Of a DNA stretch of 64,000 bases, positions 1 to 50,104 are shown in pieces (the stretch's first letter is position 1; every line of letters begins with the position of its first letter). The position numbers were made by a program, and so were the translations under genes. Below the pieces are notes generated by a model. The model was given only the letters and a program-made list of their open reading frames with translations. It was not told where the DNA came from and searched no databases. Origin of the DNA: Sialis fuliginosa (lineage: Eukaryota; Arthropoda; Insecta; Megaloptera; Sialidae); assembly GCA_961205875.1 (NCBI GenBank), contig OY540810.1, positions 9,796,001 to 9,860,000 on the forward strand, written 5' to 3'.

Positions 1-1865
1 TCTCTATTTTGATTTTCAAGTTCATAAGAAAATTGTAATCTATCATGAAAAGAATTAAAGCTATTGCATAAAGTTTCAATTTTATCCGAAGGTATTGCTG
101 TAATGATGTCATCAACATATCTTTTAAAAAAAGGAATCTCATAATCTACATTTTTCAAAACAGACTCTTGTAGTTCGTTCATAATAATATCAGCCAAAAC
201 AACAGATAGAGATGAACCCATAGGTGCTCCATAAATTTGTGAATAAAATTGATTTTTAAACTGGAAATATGACGTATTGCAACAAAATTTCAAACCATCA
301 ATAAAATCGTCCTTCTCAATATTAGTGTATTTTTTTATTTCTTCCCATTTATTAGTGATAATCTCAATAGTAGTATCGATAGGTATGTTAGTAAACAATG
401 ATTTAACATCAAGTGAAATTAATTTATATTTATTAGGTATATGAAAATCTTTAATAAATTCATGGAATTCCCAAGAGTCTCTCACGGTATTATTATTAGC
501 AGTAATATTTTTTAAAATATCAGAGAAAAATTTTGACAATTTTTGTTGTGGGCTATTATATGAAGCAACTATAGGTCTGACAGGATTATTTACTTTATGT
601 AATTTTATCAACCCGTAAATTTGTGGAGGAGTACTATTATGCACTTTAAGTTGGTTACTCAAATTTTGATCAATATAACCCATTTCATAAAATTTTTGAA
701 TAATGTTATTGTTTCTGTTCTGGAAAATATTAGTGGGGTCTTTATGTATTTTAAGATATGTTTCACCATCATTTAACAGCTCATACATTTTATTATCATA
801 ATCTACTTTATCAATCAATACGGTTTTATTAGTTTTATCAGCACGAATCACTTTGATATTTTCATTCTCCTTAAAAAACTTCCTTGCATCAGAAACATCC
901 TTAATTAGAGAACAATTATATTTATTATTCAAAAAATTGTTTTTTTTCATGTTATCCTTGTACTGATTAACATTATATATAAATTTATTTCTAATTAAGT
1001 TTTTTTCATTTTCATCTAGGTTGTCAATACCATATTCAAATGAAATAATCATATCATTGATAGGTAGATTATTATTATTATAGGGTAAATTGAAATTTGA
1101 TCCAAGTTTTAATAAATTGTTAATATTATCAGGTATCTTGTTAGAGGTTAAATTAACAACAAAATTCTCCTCATTGTGTTTAAGAGGGTTAAATTCAATA
1201 TCTATTGGTAGCTTACAATTATATTTGTTATTATATTTAGAAACATGGTTATTACTTATTATTAAATTTCTATTTTTATTATTATTATAGTTATCTACTA
1301 TCTGTTTAGAACTATTGATACAATTATTAATATATTGATTTTCATTAACCATGGCTTCAGACTTCAATTTATTAAATTTATTAATGACAACATTAAATGA
1401 TTTATAATAAGTAAATTGATAAATAGAACTTTCAATGAAAAAAACTTGTTGTAAATCAGATATAGTAAGATATTGTTTTAGCAAACTATGACATTCATTA
1501 ATACAATTTTTGTTATTTTTTAAATTACTAAAGGTTTCTGAAATTAACAGATTTAATAGCTTGTACTTAAAATTATTTAAAATATTGTTATATCTATGTT
1601 TATTGCTATTATTACTTAAAGAAATAAAGTTTTTTTTTTTATTATTATCAAATTTACTATTCATAAATTTAGGAAAAAGATTATTCTTTTTACAACTTAT
1701 AAGGAAAAATTTTTTTATATCTAGTCTTGCCTTTGTACTATATAATTTTCTTACTTGTTTCATTCTATCTTGGATGTCTTCATTTTTATATTTGTTGAGT
1801 AGAGAGTTCATATTACACTTATCATCCCCAGTGTTTTTTATATTAGTATTCATATATATGACCAT
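1..1865 (-). CDS. PLE reverse transcriptase, second copy, N-terminal part (cut by window edge)
   Basis: This is the reverse complement of 3721-5579 in the right-arm ORF. It starts at the same ATG (1865) and stays open to the left edge, giving about 621 codons. It covers the N-terminal domain and the reverse transcriptase up to and beyond the YVDD catalytic box (reverse complement near 120). Compared with the right copy it carries six extra bases around 1626-1645, in frame, adding an Asn and a Lys in a poly-Asn/Lys stretch near residue 76. The GIY-YIG part would lie left of the window, so completeness cannot be judged. Two open frames on the + strand here (1090-1290, 1510-1923) are antisense shadows. 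Confidence 0.85.
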   Translation of the reverse strand, partial: MVIYMNTNIKNTGDDKCNMNSLLNKYKNEDIQDRMKQVRKLYSTKARLDIKKFFLISCKKNNLFPKFMNSKFDNNKKKNFISLSNNSNKHRYNNILNNFKYKLLNLLISETFSNLKNNKNCINECHSLLKQYLTISDLQQVFFIESSIYQFTYYKSFNVVINKFNKLKSEAMVNENQYINNCINSSKQIVDNYNNNKNRNLIISNNHVSKYNNKYNCKLPIDIEFNPLKHNEENFVVNLTSNKIPDNINNLLKLGSNFNLPYNNNNLPINDMIISFEYGIDNLDENEKNLIRNKFIYNVNQYKDNMKKNNFLNNKYNCSLIKDVSDARKFFKENENIKVIRADKTNKTVLIDKVDYDNKMYELLNDGETYLKIHKDPTNIFQNRNNNIIQKFYEMGYIDQNLSNQLKVHNSTPPQIYGLIKLHKVNNPVRPIVASYNSPQQKLSKFFSDILKNITANNNTVRDSWEFHEFIKDFHIPNKYKLISLDVKSLFTNIPIDTTIEIITNKWEEIKKYTNIEKDDFIDGLKFCCNTSYFQFKNQFYSQIYGAPMGSSLSVVLADIIMNELQESVLKNVDYEIPFFKRYVDDIITAIPSDKIETLCNSFNSFHDRLQFSYELENQNR

Positions 1866-2335
1866 CTTGATATTATTTAAATATACCTATTTTGTAGGGG
1901 TTTTTTTTAGGTCAAAATATTAATTAAAGAACTAAACCAATGTTCAAATCATTTTAATTAATAGCGCTTATTTTAATTTTCAACATTTTTGTCTTCATCA
2001 GAAATTAATAATTATCCCTATAAGAAATCATAAACATAAGTAAGTAACATAAGCAAATGAACAAGATATTCATAGATATAAACATATTTTTTTTACTTAC
2101 AATTTAAACAGTAATTAGTGTGACCATATGTATGTAGTAAAAGATGCATATTACATCAAAAAAATTTTTTTTTTTAAATATTAAAAAGTACCCATTCTTG
2201 TACAAAAGACTAAAAATATGTAAATGTGATATCCAACAGATAAAACAATATATAAAAACAATTTCTTTAAAACATTAAAACTTAAAAATTTAGTTTAAAA
2301 ACGTTAAAAATAAATAAAATTCGTATCACATTGTA
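1840..2335 (-). repeat. PLE pLTR, left-arm copy
   Basis: Reverse complement of 3251-3746. It joins the end of the truncated unit (2336) to the start of the second ORF (ATG at 1865), so it serves as both 3' end of one unit and 5' leader of the next. By eye it matches the other two pLTRs, including the long A/T homopolymer pair (around 2158-2175). Confidence 0.9.
1945..2012 (-). ncRNA. Hammerhead ribozyme-like motif in left-arm pLTR
   Basis: Same motif as at 3574-3641, on the minus strand. The core CTGATGA is the complement of 1995-2001, with GAAA following after a short stem II. See the entry at 3574 for the fold. Confidence 0.6.
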
Positions 2336-3250
2336 TCACATGTTGAAAAGTATTTATACTAAGATAAAACTTAATTAAACAAGAAACATCAATTGTTTTT
2401 ACTTAAAACTAGTTACAAATTTATTATACAAACATGAAAAAAGAAATAAAATTACTAGTGTTTCAATGAAAGAAAAGCACTAGTATTACAAACTTAATTA
2501 TATTTATTACATCTATGGAAAACAAAAATCTTATCTATGTTAAATGTCAATTTTAAGTACAAGGTAACCTATAAAGAATTTTTTAAAAATTTTAAAAAGA
2601 GAGAAAAAAAGGGGAACAAAAACCAACAAAATCAAACTAAAACATATACCTAATCAAACAAAAATGAAAAAAGTTAAAATTAATAGAAAAACCAAAAAAT
2701 GGCATACAATACAAGCAAAAAGAAACGTGGAAAGAAGAAGAAAGAGGAAAAAAGAAAATTTATTTAATTAAATTTAGATATGATTCTTTGAGGTGATTAA
2801 GATTTTCTCTAGAGTTAAGACATTTAGGTTCTTTTAAGATATGTAACGATTCACTAAGTAATCTTTTTTTTAAAATAGGCTGAAAATCTAAAATTTCAAC
2901 ATCACCATATTCAACTTCGTGACCAGTCTGTTGTATATGGGTACGAAGTGCAGTAACTTCATTTTTAGCATATTTATGACTGTTGATTCTCTTTTGCAAG
3001 TATTGTTTAGATTGCCCTAAGTAAGAATAATCACAAGAACATTTAAGTTTATAAATAACGTTAGAACATTTCATCTTATCAGTTTTATTTTTTAATTTAG
3101 AAAAAAAAATTTTTGTAGTATACTTATTTTTGTTTATCATTTTTATATTATGTCCAGAAACAACTCTTTTCATTTTTTCAGATAAAATAGGTATATACGG
3201 GAATGAAAAATATATTTGATCATCATAAGAGTAATTGGAACTTTCTGCAA
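2336..3250 (-). pseudogene. 5'-truncated PLE copy: GIY-YIG fragment plus 3' tail
   Basis: This matches 5900-6814 of the complete copy, reversed. The coding part (3250 down to 2760) is the last 162 or so residues (from about residue 728). It includes the GIY-YIG endonuclease motifs and the same stop codon, but no RT. It differs from the complete copy at one residue in the HIQQT-x-HE segment (Gly instead of Ser). The fragment begins abruptly in mid-codon at 3250, as expected for incomplete target-primed reverse transcription. Bases 2336-2759 are the 3' untranslated tail. An internal Met would allow a 137-residue product, but there is no reason to think it is made. Confidence 0.85.
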
Positions 3251-3746
3251 TACAATGTGATACGAATTTTATTTATTTTTAACGTTTTTAAACTAAATTT
3301 TTAAGTTTTAATGTTTTAAAGAAATTGTTTTTATATATTGTTTTATCTGTTGGATATCACATTTACATATTTTTAGTCTTTTGTACAAGAATGGGTACTT
3401 TTTAATATTTAAAAAAAAAAATTTTTTTGATGTAATATGCATCTTTTACTACATACATATGGTCACACTAATTACTGTTTAAATTGTAAGTAAAAAAAAT
3501 ATGTTTATATCTATGAATATCTTGTTCATTTGCTTATGTTACTTACTTATGTTTATGATTTCTTATAGGGATAATTATTAATTTCTGATGAAGACAAAAA
3601 TGTTGAAAATTAAAATAAGCGCTATTAATTAAAATGATTTGAACATTGGTTTAGTTCTTTAATTAATATTTTGACCTAAAAAAAACCCCTACAAAATAGG
3701 TATATTTAAATAATATCAAGATGGTCATATATATGAATACTAATAT
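3251..3746 (+). repeat. PLE pLTR, upstream copy of the complete element
   Basis: Direct repeat of 6815-7310 with a constant offset of 3564 and no indel that I can see. It begins tacaatgtgatacg and ends 26 bases inside the ORF (...atactaatat). It holds the hammerhead-like motif (3574-3641) and the ORF start codons at 3721 and 3733. It should act as leader and promoter region for the complete copy; promoter activity is inferred from the family. Confidence 0.92.
3574..3641 (+). ncRNA. Hammerhead ribozyme-like motif in pLTR
   Basis: Conserved core CTGATGA (3585-3591) and GAAA (3605-3608). Stem II: one unpaired A, then GACA / TGTT around an AAAA loop (one G-U pair). Stem III: AATTAA (3608-3613) pairs with TTAATT (3625-3630), extended by TA/TA. 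Predicted cleavage is after A3631. Stem I pairs ATTT (3581-3584) with AAAT (3632-3635), with further broken pairing. Self-cleaving type I hammerheads are known in pLTRs of Penelope-like elements, and the position about 80 bases before the ORF fits. Stem II is short and AU-rich, so activity is uncertain. Confidence 0.65.
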
Positions 3747-6390
3747 AAAAAACACTGGGGATGATAAGTGTAATATGAACTCTCTACTCAACAAATATAA
3801 AAATGAAGACATCCAAGATAGAATGAAACAAGTAAGAAAATTATATAGTACAAAGGCAAGACTAGATATAAAAAAATTTTTCCTTATAAGTTGTAAAAAG
3901 AATAATCTTTTTCCTAAATTTATGAATAGTAAATTTGATAATAAAAAAAACTTTATTTCTTTAAGTAATAATAGCAATAAACATAGATATAACAATATTT
4001 TAAATAATTTTAAGTACAAGCTATTAAATCTGTTAATTTCAGAAACCTTTAGTAATTTAAAAAATAACAAAAATTGTATTAATGAATGTCATAGTTTGCT
4101 AAAACAATATCTTACTATATCTGATTTACAACAAGTTTTTTTCATTGAAAGTTCTATTTATCAATTTACTTATTATAAATCATTTAATGTTGTCATTAAT
4201 AAATTTAATAAATTGAAGTCTGAAGCCATGGTTAATGAAAATCAATATATTAATAATTGTATCAATAGTTCTAAACAGATAGTAGATAACTATAATAATA
4301 ATAAAAATAGAAATTTAATAATAAGTAATAACCATGTTTCTAAATATAATAACAAATATAATTGTAAGCTACCAATAGATATTGAATTTAACCCTCTTAA
4401 ACACAATGAGGAGAATTTTGTTGTTAATTTAACCTCTAACAAGATACCTGATAATATTAACAATTTATTAAAACTTGGATCAAATTTCAATTTACCCTAT
4501 AATAATAATAATCTACCTATCAATGATATGATTATTTCATTTGAATATGGTATTGACAACCTAGATGAAAATGAAAAAAACTTAATTAGAAATAAATTTA
4601 TATATAATGTTAATCAGTACAAGGATAACATGAAAAAAAACAATTTTTTGAATAATAAATATAATTGTTCTCTAATTAAGGATGTTTCTGATGCAAGGAA
4701 GTTTTTTAAGGAGAATGAAAATATCAAAGTGATTCGTGCTGATAAAACTAATAAAACCGTATTGATTGATAAAGTAGATTATGATAATAAAATGTATGAG
4801 CTGTTAAATGATGGTGAAACATATCTTAAAATACATAAAGACCCCACTAATATTTTCCAGAACAGAAACAATAACATTATTCAAAAATTTTATGAAATGG
4901 GTTATATTGATCAAAATTTGAGTAACCAACTTAAAGTGCATAATAGTACTCCTCCACAAATTTACGGGTTGATAAAATTACATAAAGTAAATAATCCTGT
5001 CAGACCTATAGTTGCTTCATATAATAGCCCACAACAAAAATTGTCAAAATTTTTCTCTGATATTTTAAAAAATATTACTGCTAATAATAATACCGTGAGA
5101 GACTCTTGGGAATTCCATGAATTTATTAAAGATTTTCATATACCTAATAAATATAAATTAATTTCACTTGATGTTAAATCATTGTTTACTAACATACCTA
5201 TCGATACTACTATTGAGATTATCACTAATAAATGGGAAGAAATAAAAAAATACACTAATATTGAGAAGGACGATTTTATTGATGGTTTGAAATTTTGTTG
5301 CAATACGTCATATTTCCAGTTTAAAAATCAATTTTATTCACAAATTTATGGAGCACCTATGGGTTCATCTCTATCTGTTGTTTTGGCTGATATTATTATG
5401 AACGAACTACAAGAGTCTGTTTTGAAAAATGTAGATTATGAGATTCCTTTTTTTAAAAGATATGTTGATGACATCATTACAGCAATACCTTCGGATAAAA
5501 TTGAAACTTTATGCAATAGCTTTAATTCTTTTCATGATAGATTACAATTTTCTTATGAACTTGAAAATCAAAATAGAGAAATTAGTTTTTTAGATATAAA
5601 AATTTTGGTTAACAAACATAATAAAGTTGAAACCATATGGTATACTAAACCTACCTGGTCTGCTAGATATTTGAACTACAATTCTAATTCCTCTATTGAA
5701 CATAAACGTAATGTTATTACTGCTATTTTAGACCGGGCAATTAAATTCACTAATTTTAAATATAGAAGTCAAATACTCAACAAAGTTTACAATATTTTCA
5801 TATTAAATGGTTATCCCATTAATTTTCTTAAAAACACTATAAATAATAGACTCAAAAGTATACTTTATGGACATAATAAAAATAGTAAAAGTTTGGCTGT
5901 TGCAGAAAGTTCCAATTACTCTTATGATGATCAAATATATTTTTCATTCCCGTATATACCTATTTTATCTGAAAAAATGAAAAGAGTTGTTTCTGGACAT
6001 AATATAAAAATGATAAACAAAAATAAGTATACTACAAAAATTTTTTTTTCTAAATTAAAAAATAAAACTGATAAGATGAAATGTTCTAACGTTATTTATA
6101 AACTTAAATGTTCTTGTGATTATTCTTACTTAGGGCAATCTAAACAATACTTGCAAAAGAGAATCAACAGTCATAAATATGCTAAAAATGAAGTTACTGC
6201 ACTTCGTACCCATATACAACAGACTAGTCACGAAGTTGAATATGGTGATGTTGAAATTTTAGATTTTCAGCCTATTTTAAAAAAAAGATTACTTAGTGAA
6301 TCGTTACATATCTTAAAAGAACCTAAATGTCTTAACTCTAGAGAAAATCTTAATCACCTCAAAGAATCATATCTAAATTTAATTAAATAA
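3721..6390 (+). CDS. Penelope-like element polyprotein: reverse transcriptase + GIY-YIG endonuclease
   Basis: 889 residues, uninterrupted, within the usual size for PLE ORFs. An Asn/Lys-rich N-terminal region (about 1-330) is followed by the RT: ADKTNKT (340-346), PPQIYGLIKLHK (411-422), SLDVKSLFTN with catalytic Asp484 (482-491), YGAPMGSSLS (543-552), YVDD with Asp583/584 (581-584), SFLDIKI (622-628). A linker leads to the GIY-YIG nuclease: VIY (791-793), YLG (803-805), Arg814, His818 and Glu860, with Cys788/797/799 nearby. The enzyme would nick target DNA and reverse-transcribe its own RNA there. ATG 3721 is taken as the start; ATG 3733 is an in-frame alternative. All key catalytic residues are present, so this copy could be functional. 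Codon use is strongly AT-biased. Confidence 0.95.
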   Translation: MVIYMNTNIKNTGDDKCNMNSLLNKYKNEDIQDRMKQVRKLYSTKARLDIKKFFLISCKKNNLFPKFMNSKFDNKKNFISLSNNSNKHRYNNILNNFKYKLLNLLISETFSNLKNNKNCINECHSLLKQYLTISDLQQVFFIESSIYQFTYYKSFNVVINKFNKLKSEAMVNENQYINNCINSSKQIVDNYNNNKNRNLIISNNHVSKYNNKYNCKLPIDIEFNPLKHNEENFVVNLTSNKIPDNINNLLKLGSNFNLPYNNNNLPINDMIISFEYGIDNLDENEKNLIRNKFIYNVNQYKDNMKKNNFLNNKYNCSLIKDVSDARKFFKENENIKVIRADKTNKTVLIDKVDYDNKMYELLNDGETYLKIHKDPTNIFQNRNNNIIQKFYEMGYIDQNLSNQLKVHNSTPPQIYGLIKLHKVNNPVRPIVASYNSPQQKLSKFFSDILKNITANNNTVRDSWEFHEFIKDFHIPNKYKLISLDVKSLFTNIPIDTTIEIITNKWEEIKKYTNIEKDDFIDGLKFCCNTSYFQFKNQFYSQIYGAPMGSSLSVVLADIIMNELQESVLKNVDYEIPFFKRYVDDIITAIPSDKIETLCNSFNSFHDRLQFSYELENQNREISFLDIKILVNKHNKVETIWYTKPTWSARYLNYNSNSSIEHKRNVITAILDRAIKFTNFKYRSQILNKVYNIFILNGYPINFLKNTINNRLKSILYGHNKNSKSLAVAESSNYSYDDQIYFSFPYIPILSEKMKRVVSGHNIKMINKNKYTTKIFFSKLKNKTDKMKCSNVIYKLKCSCDYSYLGQSKQYLQKRINSHKYAKNEVTALRTHIQQTSHEVEYGDVEILDFQPILKKRLLSESLHILKEPKCLNSRENLNHLKESYLNLIK

Positions 6391-6814
6391 ATTTTCTTTT
6401 TTCCTCTTTCTTCTTCTTTCCACGTTTCTTTTTGCTTGTATTGTATGCCATTTTTTGGTTTTTCTATTAATTTTAACTTTTTTCATTTTTGTTTGATTAG
6501 GTATATGTTTTAGTTTGATTTTGTTGGTTTTTGTTCCCCTTTTTTTCTCTCTTTTTAAAATTTTTAAAAAATTCTTTATAGGTTACCTTGTACTTAAAAT
6601 TGACATTTAACATAGATAAGATTTTTGTTTTCCATAGATGTAATAAATATAATTAAGTTTGTAATACTAGTGCTTTTCTTTCATTGAAACACTAGTAATT
6701 TTATTTCTTTTTTCATGTTTGTATAATAAATTTGTAACTAGTTTTAAGTAAAAACAATTGATGTTTCTTGTTTAATTAAGTTTTATCTTAGTATAAATAC
6801 TTTTCAACATGTGA
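6391..6814 (+). other. PLE 3' untranslated tail
   Basis: Non-coding sequence between the stop codon and the downstream pLTR. It is very pyrimidine-rich on the + strand for the first 150 bases (runs of ttctttcttctt and tttttctctcttttt). The same sequence is present, inverted, at 2336-2759, so it belongs to the element. Confidence 0.85.
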
Positions 6815-7310
6815 TACAATGTGATACGAATTTTATTTATTTTTAACGTTTTTAAACTAAATTTTTAAGTTTTAATGTTTTAAAGAAATTGTTTTTATAT
6901 ATTGTTTTATCTGTTGGATATCACATTTACATATTTTTAGTCTTTTGTACAAGAATGGGTACTTTTTAATATTTAAAAAAAAAAATTTTTTTGATGTAAT
7001 ATGCATCTTTTACTACATACATATGGTCACACTAATTACTGTTTAAATTGTAAGTAAAAAAAATATGTTTATATCTATGAATATCTTGTTCATTTGCTTA
7101 TGTTACTTACTTATGTTTATGATTTCTTATAGGGATAATTATTAATTTCTGATGAAGACAAAAATGTTGAAAATTAAAATAAGCGCTATTAATTAAAATG
7201 ATTTGAACATTGGTTTAGTTCTTTAATTAATATTTTGACCTAAAAAAAACCCCTACAAAATAGGTATATTTAAATAATATCAAGATGGTCATATATATGA
7301 ATACTAATAT
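6815..7310 (+). repeat. PLE pLTR, downstream copy
   Basis: Direct repeat of 3251-3746 directly after the 3' tail. It ends 26 bases into the ORF sequence (ATG at 7285), where unrelated sequence starts (atatttacatatatata). It is thus the start of a second tandem unit cut off almost at once. Confidence 0.92.
7138..7205 (+). ncRNA. Hammerhead ribozyme-like motif in downstream pLTR
   Basis: Same bases as at 3574-3641 (offset 3564): CTGATGA at 7149-7155 and GAAA at 7169-7172. With the upstream copy it brackets the complete unit. Cleavage at both would release a unit-length RNA of 3564 bases. Confidence 0.63.
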
Positions 7311-8706
7311 ATATTTACATATATATATCAGTACAGTAGCGTGTAGTTCACATTTGCATTAAATTAAAGAAGTGTTTAATATTGAATATTTGTTAGAAAT
7401 ACAACTTTATTTGTATTTTTAAATATCTTGATTTATAACACCTGGTATTTTAAAGAATTTGCTCGAGATAAATTCTAAATAACTTCTTGGTAACACTATC
7501 TGCGAGGTCTCTGTCAAATTGTTATGAATTTGCTCAGGCTTCTAGAGCAATGGTAATAAATATATAATAATGTAAATTCTATGCATTTTATGATGTTCAC
7601 TTGTCAGCCCTAATTTTAAGTCGCTGATGCGTCAAGATCATCATATATACAATTCCAGTTTGGTTATCATTTATATTTAATACCTAGCAGATAGCGTTAG
7701 CAAAAAACTAATTGGCTTTGTTCTCGAGCAAATTCTTTATAATACCTGGCATTATTCTATTAGGGTCAGTGTCAGTGTCGCCCTGGGTAAAAAAAAATTG
7801 TCGCCCCTTTACTAAGGGAAAATATAATTTATTTTTGACAGTCAAAATTCCTATATGAACTGGAAAGTGAGAATTTTTACAAATAATGGAAAATATAATA
7901 TAAATTAAAAACTTAAAACCTTTTTTCAGCCTGCCGCCCTAGGCCATGGCCCCCATGGTGAATACGCCTCTGATTAGGGTGGTTTAGAATTAAAAAAATA
8001 CTGCACTCCCTATATAAAAATTCTCTGCGCGCTACTGATATCAATATTTATACTATTATTGAAAAAATGTATTTGTTTACATTCGTTTTTATGAACACAA
8101 TGTAAACAAATAATTTTTTATTTACAATTATTTGTTTACTGATACATTTTTTTTATTTGGAAATTGTTAAAAGAATATTTAAATAATTGGTAAATACTGG
8201 AATAAATAATATAATTAAATATAATTAAATAATTAAATATTGGAACTTTCAAAAATTTCTATTTGATTTTATCATTCTGATTCGTCAAACGATATAACAA
8301 AATGACGTTTAAATATTTTATTTGAGATGAAGATATTATGCCAATGACCGAAAACGTATGGAAGTTATCAAAAATAGAAATAAAATTATAATTTGTTCAA
8401 TAATAAATAAAAACAAGTATCAAATTCCTATATTTAGCAATATTTTTAATCCTTAGTAAAACGAAACTCCCTCTTAATAAATAGTGCTATTCAGATAATT
8501 ATAATTTACAATAGTACAACATATGCTTGCAATTTTGAACCGATTGTAATAACATTATTCCATGAAGTAGTTTTGTTAAATTTAAGTACAAGGGTCGTTT
8601 GAGGTTAGGTCCTTTTTGATAATGGCCATGGTAGTAGGAATAAAGGGCAGACATAAATTACTATGACCCTACGACAATGTTATTATCTTGTAAAAATGTA
8701 TAAGTA
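7311..8706. other. No gene seen; repeat scraps
   Basis: AT-rich sequence with no credible coding frame. A short GC-richer stretch (about 7765-7975, with cgccctaggccatggccccc) looks like a degraded transposon piece. Two gctcgag(a/c) motifs with 'aaattctttataa/aaagaatttgctcgag' form a loose inverted pair (7453-7475 and 7723-7745). Confidence 0.5.
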
Positions 8707-16992: not shown

Positions 16993-17455
16993 ATATTTAA
17001 CGTCACTACTAGTATATTATTAAAAATTATAAATGTACTCATTTCATTTTATGAGAAAAATAAAGTTATATTACAAAAATTTTGTTTAAAATACAAAATT
17101 TTTTAGACAATGCAGTATATTTAAGTATTTAAACAAAATGTAATTAAAACTTTAGATGTTAAACTATTTTCATAATTACAATGAGAAAATATACATTCTT
17201 TTGTCTGAACAATCTTAAAAGAATAATATTTAAACAGAGCGCAAAAATAATTTAAATAAAATTGTTTTAATCTCATTTTCATTAATTTTAGCTTTATTAC
17301 TGTTACTAAAAAAATGAGAGTAAACAGAAATTCTGCATACCTATAAAGAAAACGTATATATTATATAATTTCTTCGAAATGTGAAAAGACTAAGAACATG
17401 ATATATTTTTTTAGTTCCTTAACAAAATAATTTACTTTAACCAAAATAAAACAAT
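16993..17455. other. No gene seen
   Basis: AT-rich, no recognisable repeat or coding frame. Confidence 0.4.
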
Positions 17456-17520
17456 GTCATTCGACGCGTGTTTCGACTTCACAAGAAGTCTTCATCAGGA
17501 GTCTGGAACAAGCCTAATAG
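17456..17520 (-). ncRNA. Hammerhead ribozyme relic
   Basis: Minus strand: CTGATGA, one unpaired A, stem II GACTTC-TTGT-GAAGTC (6 bp), GAAA, stem III ACAC/GCGT with one mismatch, then CGAATGACATTGTTTTATT. Closely related to the motif at 49203-49254. Stem I pairing is poor, so probably inactive. Confidence 0.6.
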
Positions 17521-49086: not shown

Positions 49087-49167
49087 TACTAGCGCATTGG
49101 ACACGGCTTAACCCAGAGATATAAATTTAATTTGTAATATAATTTGTAATAAAGCTATTAAATATTA

Positions 49168-49329
49168 CTTAAACTAAAAATTTACACCTCCAAACTGGAA
49201 TTGTTAGGCTCCTGATGAGGACTTCTTGTAAAGTCGAAACACGTGTCGAGTAACATTGTTTTATTGTGGTTAAGATGTATATTTTTAGTTTACGTGACTA
49301 AGAAAGCACAGTTTCTCTGTTTTTCCAGT
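49168..49329 (+). mobile_element. 162-bp hammerhead-bearing retroposon with 15-bp target duplications
   Basis: AGCTATTAAATATTA lies at 49153-49167 and again at 49330-49344, so the 162 bases between are an insertion into the older Helitron-like repeat. The insert carries one complete hammerhead (49203-49254), a 12-bp inverted repeat around it (TAAACTAAAAAT / ATTTTTAGTTTA) and no ORF. Size and content resemble small non-autonomous ribozyme retroposons (retrozymes) thought to be moved by PLE enzymes. Confidence 0.75.
49203..49254 (+). ncRNA. Well-formed hammerhead ribozyme (type I)
   Basis: Stem I: GTTA-GG-CTC pairs with GAG-TAAC (GG forms an internal loop). Core CTGATGA 49212-49218. One unpaired G, stem II GACTT...AAGTC, GAAA 49236-49239. 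Stem III is the palindrome ACACGTGT (49239-49246) with almost no loop, as in minimal PLE/retrozyme hammerheads that work as dimers. Predicted cleavage is after C49247. Confidence 0.82.
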
Positions 49330-49589
49330 AGCTATTAAATATTATTTTCACTTATCGCTAACTATTTACTCTACGCACACGAAGATATATCCGACTTCAT
49401 AAAATTTGCCCAAATTATACATCTAAACATTCTTCGTGGAACACTCTATCGATTAGTGAAAACCGGAATAAAATCTGTTCAATAGTTACTGAAAAAAATA
49501 ATTGCGAAAAATTAGGTTTGAATTTATTGAATATTGAAAAACGATTCTTACAACTATGTATGTCACATTTGTAACAATACTTATTGTTA

Positions 49590-49869: not shown

Positions 49870-50104
49870 GGGTGGGCCAATTTTCTAACCGACCTCGGGT
49901 ACCCTCGACGTGAAAGTACCCTCAATTCTAATAAAAAACGCCCATGGAACTATACATCTACATTCAACTTTAGTTTTGATTGAAAATTTTAAGTTTGAGT
50001 TAGAGGTATAGTTCCATGGGCGTTTTTTCTTAGAATTGAGAGTACTTTCACGTAAGGGGGTAGCCGAGGTCAGTAAAATTCCTTCCATACAATTTGGCCT
50101 ACCC
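49870..50104. mobile_element. 235-bp foldback MITE with TTA target duplication (PIF/Harbinger-like)
   Basis: GGGTGGGCCAATTTTCTAAC ... TTTGGCCTACCC; the arms pair over about 95 bp ('acgcccatggaactata' / 'tatagttccatgggcgt'; 'cgtgaaagtaccctcaattct' / 'agaattgagagtactttcacg'). TTA at 49867-49869 and 50105-50107. The open frame at 49885-50088 is part of it. Confidence 0.85.

Follow-up and report, generated by a model that had tools for sequence, protein, structure and literature searches.

A hammerhead-bearing 162-bp insert in Sialis fuliginosa is probably a minimal insertion product of a Penelope-like element

Penelope-like elements (PLEs) have been described in rotifers with a pseudo-LTR (pLTR), an inverted pLTR that is 37 bp shorter, a 31-bp tail and a target-site duplication (TSD) (PMC3846280). 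In Pen2a of Adineta vaga the pLTR lies beside the GIY-YIG coding end, a head-to-head inverted pLTR is shorter by about the length of the tail, the tail is one-sided and 30-40 bp long, TATA and Inr-like motifs are present, some copies carry a 5' palindrome and a TSD is found (PMC3846280). The leader family described here shares these features with Pen2a as far as that source describes it, but the copies examined mostly lack the coding part, are about 139 nt long, have TSDs of 10-16 bp and occur in high copy number. In a second system, Poseidon PAc of Anolis carolinensis, the PLE protein cuts and extends both DNA strands, and reverse transcription initiates at two internal RNA sites, which delimit the tail (Frangieh et al., PMC11167929). 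We liken our family to PAc with respect to the two internal start sites, the hammerhead motif in the leader, the cutting and extension of both strands in vitro, the use of uncleaved RNA as the main substrate and the AT-rich targets. Insertion by PAc persists with ribozyme mutants, and the RNA needed 172 nt of the ORF (PMC11167929). Animal (non-LTR) retrozymes also have a type I hammerhead, an AT-rich sequence and long TSDs, with PLEs as the suspected helper (PMC7229834); unlike them, the leader has no fixed unit, and regular tandem monomers were not found save in one candidate array. Both the route of PLE insertion and the purpose of the ribozyme are described as open questions in the papers cited here, and minimal hammerheads of unknown role occur by the thousand, for the most part scattered, in many animal genomes (PMC7761336).

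We analyzed a window of 64,000 nucleotides (C2:9796001-9860000) and searched the 392-Mb genome in 20 contigs. An insert at 49168-49329 is bracketed by identical 15-bp direct repeats, AGCTATTAAATATTA, at 49153-49167 and 49330-49344. It lies within an older host repeat on the minus strand (approximately 49088-49497) that by eye is Helitron-like, ending in a hairpin followed by CTAG/T, features that we take to be those of Helitrons. The left flank of the insert gave 40 scored matches among 160 candidates in the genome, its own locus counted, and 16 of the 19 other host-repeat copies that were fetched crossed the insertion point in one piece in alignment, with the duplicated 15 bp present once in the uninterrupted sites; the remaining three (L058, L060 and L066) did not align in one piece over this point. 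Since paralogous copies are uninterrupted and the TSD is exact, 49168-49329 represents a true insertion into a pre-existing repeat. An initial annotation, which had described a hammerhead retroposon with exact 15-bp flanking repeats inside an older repeat, was thus correct on both points. In line with its statement that the insert has no ORF, none of at least 130 aa is listed there.

The interpretation of the 162 bp as a unit, in contrast, did not hold, because the insert consists of two opposed arms and belongs to a family without a fixed length. Its first 22 bases (49168-49189, minus strand) are an inverted copy of about 49273-49295 and form a left arm that runs from leader position 104, the tail-less start site, down to position 83. 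After a 5-nt joint (CCAAA, 49190-49194), the remaining 135 bp (49195-49329, plus strand) form a right arm that is the pLTR or 5' leader of a PLE, covering family positions 5-139 with 128 of 135 bases identical to the majority sequence. This majority sequence is 139 nt long; over 133 compared positions, 7 differences separate the window copy from it. Only the right arm carries the tail, a stretch of about 35 nt bounded by the two start sites (49295-49329, plus strand; family positions 105-139), which in its family form contains GAAAC-CACA-GTTTC. The end of the tail resembles a 3' splice site, with a pyrimidine run and CAG/T, and the tail includes CTAAG. The leader may hold an intron, given a branch-like CTAAG and an acceptor-like TTTTTCCAG, and the putative start of reverse transcription may coincide with an intron end.

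A genome search with the 162-bp query returned 40 scored places among 1243 candidates. Many copies of the sequence therefore exist, but they do not form a fixed unit: the part common to the aligned copies extends from query position 22-28 to 162, and their 5' ends vary. Eight of the 40 copies have no substitutions relative to the majority sequence, small gaps not being counted. A TSD of at least 11 bp flanks 22 of the 40 copies, compared with 9 of 1000 random pairings, and one of at least 10 bp flanks 23; across leader insertions these duplications are 10-16 bp long, with an AT content of 85% compared with 70% for the loci. No TSD of at least 8 bp was found within 260 bp at 13 of the 40 copies. 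The last observation, together with the attribution of solo pLTRs without a TSD to recombination or deletion (PMC3846280), speaks for a full PLE insertion that was later shortened by deletion or by pLTR recombination. We regard this as extremely unlikely, given that the duplication flanks the short insert itself in the window copy and in 23 of the 40 copies, that the paralogous host-repeat sites are uninterrupted, and that the eight copies without substitutions are already short.

The arms of the TSD-bearing copies have a consistent geometry. In the 23 copies with a TSD of at least 10 bp the right arm stops at position 137-139 plus 0-4 nt, a constancy that partly reflects selection, since copies were drawn by queries with tail or leader. 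An inverted arm longer than 15 nt is present in 19 of these 23, and in 16 of the 19 its outer end falls within positions 102-106, about 35 nt upstream of the end of the right arm. The inverted arms of two further copies (L015 and L046) align from positions 95 and 98, with the TSD overlapping the arm, and that of L017 was misaligned to another stretch but by eye starts like the others. The distance from the outer end to the TSD is 0-4 nt, the misaligned copy aside, whereas the aligned inner ends are spread over positions 1-89. In L017, L021 and L045 an additional inverted piece of the leader start sits between the arms. A blind sample of six tail matches (L070-L075), picked without viewing their context, gave right arms that start at positions 19, 91, 4, 1, 70 and 38. 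In four of the six, a TSD of at least 10 bp occurred together with an inverted arm, and the outer ends of these arms aligned at 94, 107, 108 and 111; no TSD was found for L072 and L074 in 401 bases each. Read from this anatomy, the tail and the offset outer ends are the PLE signature of two internal, putative reverse-transcription start sites.

The head-to-head arrangement recurs in neighboring matches. Among adjacent pairs less than 400 bp apart in the fetched loci, 20 of 21 were head-to-head, one was head-to-tail (inside L018) and none was tail-to-tail. On contig C1, three partly overlapping lists of exact matches contained 8, 10 and 4 minus-then-plus pairs; among the matches listed there were no plus-then-minus pairs, and the head-to-tail steps numbered three, all within one array. 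An exact match to positions 5-40 accompanies 3 of 14 exact tails on C1, inexact matches not being counted. Genome-wide, at up to two mismatches, there were 520 tail matches, and 36-mers from the leader gave 985 (positions 5-40), 1579 (22-57) and 1369 (58-93) matches, with none for reversed controls. A diverged, older relative of the leader lies in the window itself at 17408-17504 (minus strand; 84% over 100 columns), with the hammerhead core largely kept; its differences are concentrated in the 3' part and the ribozyme half is better preserved. The leader copies in L014, L020 and L035 adjoin a repeat reading about ggcaccagttatgg(c/t)cgctataagagca.

Several loci connect the leader to a longer element. 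Sequence upstream of the leader is retained in L018, L024 and L042, and the junction between coding end and leader is visible in L069, L024 and L018. L068 and L069 contain an open stretch of 162-163 aa whose best Pfam match is GIY-YIG (E 7e-4 and 2.3e-3, neither of which reaches the curated cut-off). Searching at the protein level with 115 aa from L069 gave 150 scored places among 997 candidates, including a relative at 90% identity located in an 854-aa open frame, and a search with the 275-bp body of L018 returned 40 scored places among 280 candidates. For 22 of the 40 best protein rows, the promoter and leader-start pattern follows 11-17 bp downstream of the GIY-YIG coding end, and for 19 of the 40 at exactly 13 bp; these counts cover 100 of the 170 pattern places, and some of the 18 misses may fall among the other places rather than lack the pattern. 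The sequence is accordingly the pLTR that at other loci adjoins a longer PLE, essentially the outcome that the initial annotation had named as incompatible with its own reading, although its proposal that insertion depended on a PLE is supported: GIY-YIG coding ends are followed by the same leader, and a PLE-type tail, an inverted arm and TSDs are present.

The same loci carry a candidate promoter. In L069, TATAAATA starts 31 nt ahead of the A of TCAGT (counted by eye), and variants of this stretch occur in L024, L042 and L068, with a shortened form in L018. We read TATAAATA as a predicted TATA box with the spacing that is standard ahead of an arthropod-type initiator, and the predicted transcription start is at leader position 2. 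The longest solo right arms stop at this predicted start. Copies running upstream through the leader start gave 170 matches compared with 985 matches to positions 5-40, both at up to two mismatches and both lower bounds, and no TATA box was present in the solo copies examined.

Taken together, these results make the insert a probable minimal insertion product of a PLE, a by-product of the element generated by priming from two ends. The PLE would be transcribed from the TATA/TCAGT promoter in its pLTR, giving an RNA that should begin at leader position 2. The PLE protein would bind the 5' part of an RNA uncut at the ribozyme site and cut AT-rich DNA with a stagger, in keeping with the TSDs of 10-16 bp. 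Each broken 3' end would then prime cDNA synthesis at its own internal RNA site, as the footprint suggests: the right one where the tail stops (position 139) and the left one about 35 nt upstream (about position 104). Copying would proceed to the 5' start of the RNA or stop short of it, the tip of the cDNA in some cases folding back over a short distance, and the two cDNAs would be joined, presumably last, into the opposed arms observed between the target duplications. The hammerhead would be copied along as a component of the leader. Such a solo copy would probably be dead on arrival, because it lacks the TATA box and anything downstream of the reverse-transcription start. If the 172 nt of ORF needed in PAc RNA are required here as well, solo copies would be unable to act as templates, since they stop at the start site.

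Opposed arms could also arise if a single cDNA, primed at the right, reached the 5' end of the RNA, snapped back and copied itself into the left arm. Self-priming of this kind has been proposed for PLEs (PMC3846280), the right arm has a 5' palindrome of at least 5 nt in 11 of 39 assessed copies and of at least 10 nt in 3 of 39, and the inverted 5' end between the arms of L017, L021 and L045 is in agreement with it. However, this route should leave the outer end variable and place the inner end at the palindrome, and what is observed is mostly the reverse (outer ends at 102-106 in 16 of 19, inner ends at 1-89). We therefore consider a single-cDNA origin unlikely. Separate priming at each end of a staggered break agrees better with the footprint, and fold-back on a small scale may add a few bases at the cDNA ends.

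The hammerhead motif itself (49206-49253, plus strand) is of type I. The strict pattern CTGATGAG...GAAA (49212-49239) has its sole match in the window here, compared with a mean of 0.07 in shuffled sequences, and a looser pattern adds the diverged relative at 17498 (minus strand) and three copies of the motif of a second PLE in the window. Rfam Hammerhead_1 (RF00163) matched 49206-49253 with 19 bits, below its gathering score of 34 (E 0.046 for the 301 bases searched), and a hammerhead was absent from the matches of two whole-window scans. Stem I is bipartite in the fold model, as had been proposed (CTC/GAG and TGTTA/TAACA), with its 5' strand at 49202-49211 (TGTTA, a GG bulge and CTC) and its 3' strand at 49248-49255. 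The stem II hairpin (49220-49235) has 5 pairs in the window copy and is preceded by one extra G after CTGATGA. The palindromic stem III noted in the initial annotation is ACACGTGT (49239-49246), which in the model forms only 2 bp closed by an ACGU loop and, being self-complementary, could pair between two copies. The motif places the predicted cleavage site after C49247, in agreement with that annotation.

Of the 40 copies, 39 retain an intact core pattern. The hammerhead fold is not the energy minimum, at -4.8 compared with -8.5 kcal/mol for the window copy and -9.0 compared with -15.6 kcal/mol for the majority sequence, and folding energy gave no signal (z -0.6 to -0.8). With a stem III of 2 bp and a hammerhead fold that lies above the energy minimum, the monomer ribozyme is probably weak. 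The leader resembles the minimal type I hammerheads reportedly found in PLEs by Cervera and de la Pena (2014) and Lunse (2017), both cited in PMC7761336, in its very short stem III, its pLTR location and its many dispersed copies, and differs from them by the extra purine between CTGATGA and stem II, which is found in both the leader motif and the second PLE of the window. For PLE hammerheads, activity is reported as a dimer or with protein (PMC7761336; PMC11167929), and a viroid hammerhead core with an extra nucleotide is reported in a work cited in PMC6155905.

The minimal single-ribozyme retrozyme proposed initially would be an independent, non-autonomous element: its ribozyme would cut the tandem RNA, which would then be circularized and reinserted by a PLE enzyme. 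The type I core, the low GC content, the long TSDs and an insert size close to the range that PMC7229834 states for animal retrozymes (150-450 bp) agree with this proposal. So does, by match positions, a head-to-tail array of four exact cores with 176-bp spacing at C1:39236276-39236839 (plus strand). Among the matches listed, the last core of this array is the only one with a downstream leader segment after it, and an inverted segment lies at 39236007. Neither the tail-to-head junction nor the tail-less head-to-tail junction expected of tandem units had an exact match in 392 Mb. The right-arm 5' ends of the blind sample, scattered at 1, 4, 19, 38, 70 and 91, define no monomer, the longest arms stop at the predicted transcription start rather than at the cleavage point, stem III has just 2 bp, and the leader is common to PLE-coding copies. 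Given also the lack of a predicted TATA box in the solos examined, a retrozyme is very unlikely. The cleavage point lies within every right arm that extends to position 5, indicating that the template RNA of these arms was uncut there, or rejoined. A template produced by ribozyme cleavage was considered and rejected, since the 36-mer counts (985, 1579 and 1369, compared with 520 for the tail) show no 3'-side excess, a rough test given that the segments differ in conservation and that diverged relatives, the one at 17498 (minus strand) among them, match the core as well.

The preferred reading, insertion of leader sequence by priming from both ends, raises a further point. In vitro, PAc uses the same start sites on both strands, whereas here the arms of tail-bearing insertions use different ones, and this fixed polarity does not match the absence of a strand difference reported in vitro (PMC11167929). 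We tentatively suggest, as a possibility rather than a probability, that PLE enzymes give each target end its own fixed RNA start, one including and one lacking the tail, making all short insertions twin-primed with one polarity, and that the orphan minimal hammerheads scattered through animal genomes are mostly leader footprints of this reaction rather than ribozymes with a local function. Leader insertions would account for dispersed hammerheads that otherwise resemble functional ribozymes or mini-elements. We do not claim strand-specific use of two start sites as unpublished, the literature searched being the openly licensed part. The value of the leader family lies in its two-site footprint and large copy number: it comprises hundreds of short insertions whose DNA sequence is enough to show both start sites, the cut in the target and the joint of the arms.

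The window contains a second PLE (1-7311), identified as such by eye, with an open frame of 896 aa at 3700-6390. A Pfam search of this ORF gave nothing useful, and a PDB search gave weak reverse transcriptase matches (best E 0.031). Its pLTRs at 3250-3747 and 6814-7311 are identical, and it has a long head-to-head inverted arm, positions 1-2336 being the inverse of 5579-3250 at 99.7%. A hammerhead-like motif, CTGATGAAGACAAAAATGTTGAAA, occurs in it at 3585 and 7149 on the plus strand and at 2001 on the minus strand. Elsewhere in the window, a palindrome at 49908-50053 draws weak miRNA-precursor matches on both strands and is probably an inverted-repeat element. Finally, C10:3223703-3253527 holds five copies of a decayed GIY-YIG fragment at a spacing of ~7.37 kb, by position a tandem array.
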